Source: Caldifarciminota bacterium
Lineage (GTDB): Bacteria > Hydrothermota > Hydrothermia > LBFQ01
Reading direction: 5' to 3'
NCBI GenBank assembly: GCA_015494805.1
Contig: WGAN01000119.1
Coordinates: 1 to 36,086 of the forward strand
Length of the DNA stretch: 36,086 nucleotides
Positions 21,830 to 25,164 of this stretch are shown here, piece by piece (position 1 is the stretch's first letter; the number at the start of each line of letters is the position of its first letter). The notes beneath the pieces were generated by a model. That model ran no database searches. It was not told where the DNA came from and worked only from the letters and a program-made list of their open reading frames with translations. The position numbers and the translations under genes are program-made.

Positions 21830-21835
21830 ATTCTA
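21830..21835 (-). promoter_or_regulatory. -10 element of the HAD gene, fused to the dnaA-like stop
   Basis: TAGAAT on the minus strand; the TAG (21835-21833) is the stop codon of the dnaA-like gene. It lies 6 nt before TTG 21823. Confidence 0.6.
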
Positions 21836-22993
21836 CAGGAGGTCCCTCCGAAGCACCTTCAGCTTACCGTTGAACTCCTCCGCCTTATCGGGGTCGTTCT
21901 TGAGGATCGCCTTCGCCCGCTTTATGTAGTTATACACGCTCGCCCTTGAGCATCCGACCCTCTCTGCTATCTCCGTCGCCTTGAAACCGAGGAGTCTCAT
22001 AGCATATACGGCGAGGTAGAAGTTGGCCCCCTTCCTCCGGGTATCCCTGACACCGAAGAGGGAAAAGACGTCCTCTCCATCGTCGTCGGTGAGGTCGGAT
22101 ATGAGGTTGCGGAAGGTGGTAAAGTCCGGAAGCGTCCCGTAAATATCGGTATGCGCCCTAACCCTGACGGCGACCCCTAGGAGGGCGCGGGGGTTATGGA
22201 CCCTCTCAAGGACGTAGCCCTCGTAATCCGGAGGTAGGGACACCCCGTGGAGAGACAACCGGGCGTGGAGGATCCTCCTCCGTACGGCAGCAGGGTACGG
22301 GTGGATCTTGAGGACGAGGTTGGACATAAGCCTGTTGCGGAAGGATTTGGGCTTGCGGAAGCCTTTCGGCCCGATCTCCGAGGCCATGACCACCGTCCTC
22401 CCCGTTGAGTTGGCCCTATCCATAAGGCGGGATAGGAACTCCAAGGCGAAGACCTTGCCCTTGAGGGTATGGACGTCGTCTATCAGGACGACCTCGGCAT
22501 CCTTGAGGTTGGAGAAGTCCGGCCTCCCACCGCTCCTGTAAGCCCCCACCAGTCGCTCCATGATCTTGCCGGCGGTGAGATATACGGCCTTCCTACCGGC
22601 GAACTGGGCGAGGTTAGCCGTAGCCTTGAGGAGGTGGGTCTTGCCCATGCCAGCCTCGGCGGTTAAGAAGACGGAGGAAGCCAAACCTCCGCCGAGGGCG
22701 ACGCTCCGCAGGGCCGCCACCGTGAACTCGTTTTCCTTACCGTAGAAGAAGTTGTCAAAGGTCTCCCGGAAGACCTTCTTCCCCCCCTGTGGGTAGGTTA
22801 GCACCACCTTTATACCGAGCCTCGCTTCTACGTCCCGTATATGGTTGGCAAACCTCTCCTGCAGGAGGCGGGCTAGGATCTCGTTCCTACACTTCAGGAC
22901 TATGCTGTTTCCCCTCTCCTCCACCCCGTCCACGAAAGCGAGGAGCGAACCCAACTTGTGCAGTTTCAGGAGGCCGACTAGGGTCCTATCCAA
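21833..22993 (-). CDS. dnaA: Divergent DnaA-like AAA+ protein
   Basis: About 386 residues. A domain I-like N-terminus (1-67) is followed by the AAA+ core. TFDNFFYGKENEF (78-90) is the classic entry motif. Walker A is around AGMGKT (114-119), Walker B VVLIDD (168-173), sensor I VVMASE, and sensor II Arg in NPRALLGV. Two things are odd. The box VII arginine finger, normally RLxSRF, reads RLMSNL (221-226). The domain IV signature RDHTTVLHA is replaced by SRASVYNYIKRA (349-360) in a generic helix-turn-helix. It may be the lineage's initiator or a DnaA paralogue such as an Hda-like regulator. TTG 22993 is chosen from the -10 and from domain I alignment; an ATG at 23164 would add 57 unconserved residues. 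Confidence 0.78.
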   Translation of the reverse strand: MDRTLVGLLKLHKLGSLLAFVDGVEERGNSIVLKCRNEILARLLQERFANHIRDVEARLGIKVVLTYPQGGKKVFRETFDNFFYGKENEFTVAALRSVALGGGLASSVFLTAEAGMGKTHLLKATANLAQFAGRKAVYLTAGKIMERLVGAYRSGGRPDFSNLKDAEVVLIDDVHTLKGKVFALEFLSRLMDRANSTGRTVVMASEIGPKGFRKPKSFRNRLMSNLVLKIHPYPAAVRRRILHARLSLHGVSLPPDYEGYVLERVHNPRALLGVAVRVRAHTDIYGTLPDFTTFRNLISDLTDDDGEDVFSLFGVRDTRRKGANFYLAVYAMRLLGFKATEIAERVGCSRASVYNYIKRAKAILKNDPDKAEEFNGKLKVLRRDLL

Positions 22994-23002
22994 GGGTTGG
23001 AT

Positions 23003-23008
23003 ATTATC
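23003..23008 (-). promoter_or_regulatory. -10 element of the dnaA-like gene
   Basis: GATAAT on the minus strand, 9 nt before TTG 22993 (or the overlapping TAATAT, 7 nt before). Confidence 0.45.
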
Positions 23009-23193
23009 CTGCGGATGGAACGCAGGGATGAGGGAGCGGAAACCTACGGAGGAGCCTAACTCCATACAGCTTATGCGAAAATTGAACCACTTGAGGGGTG
23101 AAACGGAGGCGTACGGAAGAGAGGGAAATTGACCACCGCCTACGGTCTCCGTGCTAAGGGCCAAACTTCCCTACGAGTACGGAAAGAATTCTT

Positions 23194-23321: not shown

Positions 23322-24056
23322 GTGTTCCTGCTGACTTGGACGAGGATCCTATCAAAGGGGCGAGCGTTCCCACGGGACGAGGACGGTAGGCCCTACGTAC
23401 CCGGCGATTACCTGACGGAGGCTGTAAAGGACGCCGTCGTCTTCTACTTCGTTAAGAAGGACGGTAGCCTTGAGGCGGCGGTTAGAAGGTACCTGACCGG
23501 CGGGAAGTTGGAGATGGAAGCCCTCGCGGAACGGGTATACGGAATGGTGTTTGAGAGGTATCCGATACTGAAGGGCTTACGTGTCCCGGAGCGTATCCCC
23601 CTACCCGAAGAGGGGCTTTCCAAGGTGGTGGTGGAGGTCTTAGACCTGAAGAAAGGGTACGATGTTCGGGACTTCCGTACCGAGGCCTTCTACGGCACGT
23701 TGGAAGTACCAGTTGAGGTGGAAGCAGAGGCTTGGGAGAGGCTTAAGTATGCGGGTAGGTCCTTCACGGAGGCCCTGATAAGGATGGAGCAGGGTTTCCT
23801 TAGGGACAACCCCGTCCTCGGTGAGTTCTACGGGAACCTCCTAAACGAGGTGAAGGAATGGGAGGTACCCCTCCGGCTCGGCAGATGGACCACGGCCCCC
23901 CATGGCGGGAGGCTACTCTTCTTCTGGAGGATAAAGGAGGTAAGGGACAGGATACTGCGGGACTACGGGGTAGATATAAGGCCGACGAAGGTCCTGTACC
24001 TCCCACGGGATAGGGCTACGGCCGGATGGTCGGAGATGAGGAGGGACCTGGGATAG
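23322..24056 (+). CDS. Stand-alone RAMP-fold protein resembling Csm5
   Basis: 244 residues, not recognised with certainty. The N-terminus FLLTWTRILSKGRAFPRDED followed by GRPYVPGDYLTEAVKDA (22-38) matches the RAMP pattern in which a YxPGxxLkgA segment follows a ferredoxin-like first strand. The C-terminal part has LRLGRWT (184-190), PTKVLYLP (221-228) and AGWSEM (234-239). These parallel the Csm5 RLGxGTG, P-x-R and GW motifs in the same order. Csm5 is usually over 300 residues, so this is a short or divergent version. No other cas gene and no CRISPR array are in the window. It neighbours the dnaA-like gene and an empty 1-kb locus. Possible roles include RNA binding. GTG is chosen because of the TACAAT -10. 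Alternative: an unrelated hypothetical protein. Confidence 0.55.
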   Translation: MFLLTWTRILSKGRAFPRDEDGRPYVPGDYLTEAVKDAVVFYFVKKDGSLEAAVRRYLTGGKLEMEALAERVYGMVFERYPILKGLRVPERIPLPEEGLSKVVVEVLDLKKGYDVRDFRTEAFYGTLEVPVEVEAEAWERLKYAGRSFTEALIRMEQGFLRDNPVLGEFYGNLLNEVKEWEVPLRLGRWTTAPHGGRLLFFWRIKEVRDRILRDYGVDIRPTKVLYLPRDRATAGWSEMRRDLG

Positions 24057-24354
24057 GGTTCCATTGGCCTTGATGGGCGAGGGCGTCGGTAAGTCTCACC
24101 TCAAGTTCTCGGTCCGATACCTGACGTTGCACTACCCTTGAAGGGTTTGGGGTGGGAAGGATCCTTCCGCCTACTGGTTGCTCTGCAAAATCTCAATTTT
24201 GAACTCAATTTGGCATTGCACCGATAGGGTGATGCTCCGTCCGGTATTTCACTGATAACGTCCTTGTACTCCTTATGGCCAATTTTGAACGGACGGCCCA
24301 CCTTTGGACGGGAAGGTGAGGGATAGCCTACCTTCCACCCGACATCACCCCAAC

Positions 24355-24447
24355 CGCACCTTCAAAAACTGAAAGTCAGACTTTAGGAAACTTGATGATA
24401 GTCGGACCTCAAGATTCCTATACTCCCATTAACGGATTTTGAAAGGG
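24355..24447 (+). repeat. About 90-bp diverged repeat, copy A
   Basis: Begins CACCTTCAAAAACTGAAAG and ends CCCATTAACGGATTTTGAAA. It is related to the block at 25033-25125. Its second half is also found inverted at about 32921-32965. Confidence 0.5.
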
Positions 24448-25032
24448 ACCAGGGAAAACCTCCCTCCTGTGATATGGAGAATTTCATACCGCCGACTCCC
24501 TTAGGATGGATATCACCCCATCCACAGAATGCCCTCAATTGGATAGGCTCTCCCCGTTGGTATTACGCCTGATGTCAAATTTTGAGTAGTATCGGTAAAG
24601 ACTCGCACTTTTGGTGAATTAAAGATGAATGGATGTTTGGGTATGTTTTAAAAACCGCAAAATTGACTTTAAAAAATATTAATTGCGTTTCAAAATTCCC
24701 GCAATCTCCGTCAAAGAATTCGGCACTACGCCGACAGGTACTCCTCCCGTTCGCACCTTCAAAAGTTGAAAAGCTGACAATCGCGCTTTGGGATTACTGC
24801 AAGCTGATGGCAAGATTTTGAAGTTTATTGCCGGGTCCTACCCCGGAGAGTTGAAGCCGGGTTTAGGGAGATCGCTCATCGGGATTTGGGATTTTGGCAC
24901 CTATCATACGGAGAATTCCGTTTCGGCGGATCATCGGGGGCCGTTGTCAAAGTCGCCGAATACTGGGAAGCGACCTATACCGATGGAGGGTCCATCGCCT
25001 GAAGTTGTATCCGGGAGGGATGTGAAGATCGT

Positions 25033-25125
25033 CTGTCCTTTCAAAAGCTGAAAATCAGACCTCAATAAACCGTAAGTTGTACTTCAAGATTCTTACAATC
25101 CCATTTGCGGATTTTGGAAGGCATC
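25033..25125 (+). repeat. About 90-bp diverged repeat, copy B
   Basis: Same order of blocks as copy A: CCTTTCAAAAGCTGAAAATC, a variable centre, then CTTCAAGATTCTTACAATCC and GCGGATTTTGGAAGG. It ends just before the tRNA-Val terminator. Confidence 0.5.
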
Positions 25126-25142
25126 TCCTATGCTCCACCAAC

Positions 25143-25164
25143 AAAAAAATGGGCCTTTCGGCCC
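25143..25164 (-). terminator. Intrinsic terminator of tRNA-Val
   Basis: On the minus strand GGGCC-GAAA-GGCCC is followed by A and seven T. It starts 3 nt after the tRNA 3' end and is the clearest intrinsic terminator in the window. Confidence 0.9.

Follow-up and report, generated by a model that had tools for sequence, protein, structure and literature searches.

A Csm5-related RAMP-domain protein encoded with UPF0128 and apart from CRISPR systems in mostly thermophilic vent bacteria

The window, the 36,086-nucleotide stretch of DNA analysed here as a whole, comes from an 86% complete draft genome of candidate division WOR-3 (Caldifarciminota at NCBI). It encodes a gene that we call csm5L, which lies between a dnaA-like gene and a gene-free stretch (Table 1). 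The original prediction described a RAMP-like gene of about 244 residues, and the open reading frame has exactly this size and place. Its GTG start matches the conserved beginning of the family, MxLLTWTP. The motifs quoted for it are also present, at conserved places of the family (YVPG at residues 25-28, LRLGRWT at 184-190, TKVLYLP at 222-228 and AGWSEM at 234-239). Residues R185, G187, F200-F201-W202, K205, R208, D218, I219, P221 and G235 are invariant in 57 homologues, and a near-invariant block, RxGxWT....GxLLFFWRxKExR..........DIxP, is peculiar to the family.

Table 1. Positions of csm5L, its conserved segments and its neighbours in the window.
Feature	Position	Strand	Description
dnaA-like gene	21833-23164	-	AAA+ protein, 443 aa
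csm5L	23322-24056	+	Intact ORF, GTG start, 244 aa; stand-alone Csm5-type RAMP-domain protein without capping domain
Beta-strand and helix 1 segment	23394-23432	+	YVPGDYLTEAVKD, residues 25-37; from HMM alignment to real Csm5 and column counts
Family signature	23871-23948	+	LRLGRWTTAPHGGRLLFFWRIKEVRD, residues 184-209; where Csm5 has its Gly-rich loop
C-terminal block	23973-24041	+	DIRPTKVLYLPRDRATAGWSEMR, residues 218-240; counterpart of Csm5 PSSRRLT..GRPLGW
Gene-free stretch	24057-25160		1.1 kb; short dispersed repeats, e.g. CACCTTCAAAAACTGAAAGTCAGAC

The dnaA-like protein reaches 111 bits, far below the DnaA cut-off of 344. Its C terminus resembles sigma-70 region 4 or another HTH, and the usual DnaA C-terminal domain is not matched. 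The gene adjoins csm5L in the window, as first described, but is not beside csm5L in the congeners, and was rejected as a partner for this reason. The promoter of csm5L had been said to look active; no sigma-70-like site was found upstream of the gene on its strand. The downstream stretch had been put forward as the source of a partner RNA. However, its repeats are dispersed and private to the window genome, with 29 matches there (including one 250-base copy at G000:C108), and none in five congeners, carriers of csm5L included. The stretch is thus no candidate for a partner RNA, and the proposed link to csm5L was abandoned.

csm5L is a real gene under purifying selection. Values of dN/dS range from 0.03 to 0.16 overall and from 0.03 to 0.12 for close pairs; the window gene and its nearest relative give 0.16, with synonymous sites nearly saturated. 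Homologues of 232-247 aa, conserved from end to end, occur in WOR-3, Aquificota, Campylobacterota and Bacteroidota as well as in further vent bacteria. The gene is encoded in 12 of the 41 genomes of a kinship sample (the window's own genome counted) and was found at 65 loci in GTDB genomes. These belong to WOR-3, Aquificota (Persephonella, Thermovibrio and other Desulfurobacteriaceae), Campylobacterota (Nautiliaceae, Nitratiruptor) and Bacteroidota/Chlorobiota, and MAGs labelled Deferribacteres and Thermodesulfatator hold csm5L as well. Taxa and isolate names suggest that the hosts are mostly hydrothermal-vent bacteria. The distribution is patchy, and WOR-3 copies stand at several places of a tree whose deep support is low. 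A viral or plasmid gene was considered and rejected: none was found in viral contigs or plasmids, and the csm5L model had no match at E<=0.001 in a library of viral protein structures.

Csm5 is an RNA-gripping subunit of CRISPR immune complexes, and Csm5-type RAMPs are known as CRISPR parts. It is the closest known counterpart of csm5L and belongs to type III-A Cas10-Csm (TIGR01899, COG1332; PDB: 7uzz, 6ldn, 6mur, 6o7e). An AlphaFold2 model of csm5L built from 57 homologues shows a confident RAMP fold (pLDDT 90.5, pTM 0.88), and in a Foldseek search of the PDB ranks 1-23 are all Csm5 chains (best E 4.9e-6, probability 1.00, TM-score by query length up to 0.64). Profile comparison with hhalign likewise bears out the specifically Csm5-like assignment. 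The csm5L family aligns with four Csm5 proteins from related genomes at a probability of 91 (E 1e-6, 150 columns), versus at most 5.1 for Csm3, Csm4, Cmr1, Cmr3, Cmr4, Cmr6 and Cas6; the RAMP gene of the window genome gives 7.3. A member from a genome whose label, Aquifex-like, is inferred (G166, locus L150) matches TIGR01899 at 1.7e-6 with 27.8 bits, the best among the members scanned and below the curated cut-off of 38.3 bits. The same protein matches six PADLOC Csm5 models (4.5e-7 to 2e-5), and the family HMM matches the real Csm5 of a type III-A operon at 5e-10. No member scanned matches the Pfam RAMP superfamily (PF03787) despite the modelled RAMP fold, and the window protein has no NCBIfam match. 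Single-sequence searches with the latter (Pfam, NCBIfam, PDB phmmer) were too weak to decide, and its identity was settled by profiles and structure. The motif order is collinear with that of Csm5, FIRDTYYRPYIPGSSIKGAIRTA pairing with FPRDEDGRPYVPGDYLTEAVKDA and, by eye, HIGYGGGYL with LRLGRWTTAPHGGRLLFF and PSSRRLTSNGRPLGWCKWE with RPTKVLYLPRDRATAGWSEM. We conclude that csm5L is a Csm5-related RAMP domain and not a Csm5, since the capping domain and the RNA-contact motifs are absent and the family has a near-invariant block of its own.

No cas gene or CRISPR array was found in the window, in agreement with the original prediction that cas10, csm2-4, cas6 and an array are missing, and Rfam gives only three tRNAs. 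When 78 csm5L loci (0.96 Mb) were compared with 26 type III locus proteins by BLASTP (E<=1e-4), only csm5L itself was matched, by Csm5 at up to 3e-7. A single CRISPR-like array was seen in this sequence, some 6 kb distant, where L071 ends. Among 136 Aquificota genomes, PF03787 RAMP genes occur in 30 of the 48 that carry csm5L and in 56 of the 88 others (p=1), and 18 csm5L genomes have no RAMP match at all. The proposal of a RAMP protein outside a type III locus thus holds for the family, with no cas gene near the 78 loci and, in Aquificota, a presence independent of RAMP genes. Neither of the two outcomes named beforehand as fatal to it, a confident model lacking the RAMP fold or a full type III locus from which csm5L had been displaced, was observed.

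These data bear on two CRISPR-bound explanations. csm5L could be a csm5 that was displaced from a type III locus, or is a remnant of one, and still contributes to Cas10-Csm, a reading that fits its clear Csm5 homology and a Cmr6/Csm5-type RAMP gene elsewhere in the window genome, on a contig without Cas10. It is contradicted by the independence from RAMP genes, the lack of cas genes at the 78 loci and the lack of a Cas10 palm match in the window genome, where no type III locus that could have lost it was found. The capping domain is also absent, the signature LLFFWRxKExR is under strong purifying selection, and genome G280, which has a complete type III-A locus, encodes a real csm5 in addition to csm5L. 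We regard displacement as highly improbable. Alternatively, csm5L could be a decoy or regulator, a shortened Csm5 acting on Cas10-Csm complexes to poison or tune them, as an anti-CRISPR or a brake on autoimmunity. A Csm5 without its capping domain could in principle end the Csm3 filament wrongly, and type III RAMPs are present in many csm5L genomes. However, csm5L is equally common without RAMP genes, absent from the viral contigs, plasmids and viral protein structures searched, found in chromosomal housekeeping contexts and tightly linked to UPF0128, and we consider such a role very unlikely.

The one Cmr6/Csm5-type RAMP gene of the window genome (L112:6354-7634, minus strand; G000:C29) lies near a contig end and has no Cas10 beside it. 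It appears to be a remnant or a cut-off type III-B locus, of which the congener G004 has a fuller version (L108).

The csm5L family is accompanied by UPF0128 (PF03673, TIGR00703), which in 47 of 62 loci is the next gene upstream, in the same orientation and mostly with an overlap of a few bases or within about 30 bases. The upstream neighbours scanned match PF03673 at E 1e-86 to 1e-100. In the 136 Aquificota genomes, 44 carry both genes, 4 only csm5L, 3 only UPF0128 and 85 neither (Fisher p=2.5e-27, which overstates the evidence because the species are related). Three of the four csm5L-only cases are fragments, as are, or are broken, two of the three UPF0128-only cases, and coordinates place the two genes next to each other in 39 of the 44 co-carrying genomes. 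The corresponding WOR-3 counts (both/single/single/neither) are 10/2/3/26 (p=1.4e-5). UPF0128 is found in 18 of 19 genomes picked by csm5L, non-adjacent cases included, and it is encoded elsewhere in the same genome where csm5L stands apart (G001, G002, G004, G015, G024, G032). Two WOR-3 genomes have UPF0128 without csm5L (G008, G037); in both, the contig breaks off within UPF0128, on the side where csm5L would be expected. Shared descent by itself hardly accounts for the association, given the unlinked cases and the separate placement of WOR-3 lineages on the tree (deep support low).

In the genome of the window, an 86% complete draft, no UPF0128 was found. In the congeners the two genes stand apart; three of the four that hold csm5L also encode UPF0128. 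csm5L is lone, as first described, in some lineages including this one, but not as a family; the partner was missed at first because the window does not contain it. UPF0128 is also encoded by Methanocaldococcus jannaschii. In hhalign comparisons UPF0128 matched neither csm5L nor any RAMP family tried (below 1), and its scores against Csm5, Csm4, Cmr3, Cmr6 and Cas6 led to the rejection of the idea that it is another Cas subunit. Its model has no credible full-length fold match in the PDB (PilM matches at E 6e-4 have a TM-score of 0.16), and the literature searched holds no description of its function. We conclude that csm5L is very probably a CRISPR-independent Csm5 relative with UPF0128 as its functional partner.

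Prefoldin alpha (PF02996) and two conserved small membrane proteins recur as neighbours in Aquificota, and Aquifex-like genomes additionally encode a prefoldin-2 protein (PF01920) and DUF505 by csm5L. The conserved Aquifex-like cluster (L150:5157-10314) comprises prefoldin alpha, the two small membrane proteins, UPF0128, csm5L, prefoldin-2 and DUF505. UPF0128 adjoins DUF505 in G016 (L117), a genome without csm5L. In the Aquificota genome G237, UPF0128 and prefoldin alpha are side by side with csm5L absent and about 240 bases remaining between them (L157:7332-8726). The module of csm5L and UPF0128 could thus serve protein folding or membrane assembly together with prefoldin and the small membrane proteins, the RAMP fold acting as a protein-binding scaffold. 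These neighbourhoods speak for such a function, as does the loss of the Csm5 RNA-contact motifs. However, UPF0128 is the only shared csm5L neighbour in Campylobacterota and Bacteroidota, which have no prefoldin gene there, and it is the sole near-obligate partner. We find a folding or membrane module somewhat unlikely.

We favour a reading in which this Csm5-type RAMP (RRM-like) domain has its function outside CRISPR-Cas, paired with UPF0128 in a module of two proteins. Without catalytic activity of its own, csm5L would bind RNA, probably jointly with UPF0128, as a subunit of a housekeeping ribonucleoprotein of thermophiles. By analogy with Csm5, it could hold a cellular RNA and recruit PNPase or RNase R, and UPF0128 would supply part of the RNA or protein surface. 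The non-catalytic character is suggested by Csm5, in which a nuclease site could not be located (PMC6447361), and by csm5L, in which none was recognised. Both proteins have a mean net charge of only about +1, and RNA may not be the ligand because those RNA-contact features of Csm5 that allow comparison (the Gly-rich beta1 loop and, in helix 1, K and R) have been lost. Given the lost contact residues and the low charge, a protein-scaffold role near prefoldin is also conceivable. A non-catalytic RNA-binding or scaffold subunit acting with UPF0128 is the likely function in broad terms. The narrower role of a putative RNA-binding adaptor is possible, at slightly less than an even chance, and the assessment of identity and adaptor role jointly is evenly balanced.

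Since csm5L occurs without an associated CRISPR system and keeps company with UPF0128, a component of the immune machinery seems to have acquired a different cellular task. No description of a Csm5 relative living outside CRISPR systems was found in the literature searched. On origin rather than present function, csm5L and Csm5 might both descend from a pre-CRISPR RAMP, csm5L having kept a cellular role and Csm5 having been recruited to CRISPR. The simpler architecture without a capping domain, the housekeeping context and the broad spread in thermophiles are compatible with this, but csm5L resembles Csm5 specifically and not all RAMPs equally, and the patchy distribution with WOR-3 copies at several places of the tree also argues against it; we judge it quite unlikely. 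Tentatively, a Csm5-type RAMP and UPF0128 may form a housekeeping ribonucleoprotein of thermophiles that is independent of CRISPR. It would represent either a Cas subunit recruited to work on cellular RNA or a surviving relative of the cellular protein that gave rise to the type III RAMP subunits. The pair occurs in at least four phyla, mostly in thermophilic vent bacteria, and gives two unknown families a shared context. With this pair, the question of how CRISPR subunits arose in the cell or were later put to use becomes experimentally approachable; Persephonella and Thermovibrio are genera with cultured members.

Csm5 is encoded with cas10 and csm2-4 near CRISPR arrays, whereas csm5L has no such partners or CRISPR link. 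Csm5 has a capping domain, located after strand 1 and before helix 1, which contacts the target RNA and Csm2 (PMC10289348), and the RAMP domain grips the 3' side of the crRNA while the protein recruits PNPase and RNase R (PMC10289348, PMC9762709, PMC6447361). csm5L lacks this domain of about 90 aa and has no room for it, as its residues 13-16 align to positions 91-110 of the Csm5 profile. The disordered region that Csm5 requires for PNPase binding (PMC9762709) is seemingly absent from the short, well-ordered csm5L model. The crRNA-contacting helix-1 motif of Csm5, PGSSxKGAxR, corresponds to PxNxxxEAIxSA in the csm5L consensus, so that K-G-A-x-R becomes x-E-A-x-x-S without K and R; in the window protein YVPGDYLTEAVKD is the counterpart of YIPGSSIKGAIRT, its basic K..R replaced. 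The Gly-rich beta1 loop is likewise exchanged for RxGxWT....GxLLFFWRxKExR. Csm3, Cmr6, Cmr4 and other Cas7-group RAMPs share the superfamily fold with csm5L, and their profile similarity to it is much weaker or none. The likeness to Csm5 itself consists in a RAMP/RRM fold along the whole of csm5L, significant profile matches and the collinear motifs FxRD..xPYxPG, LxLG and PxxxxL..xxGWxE.
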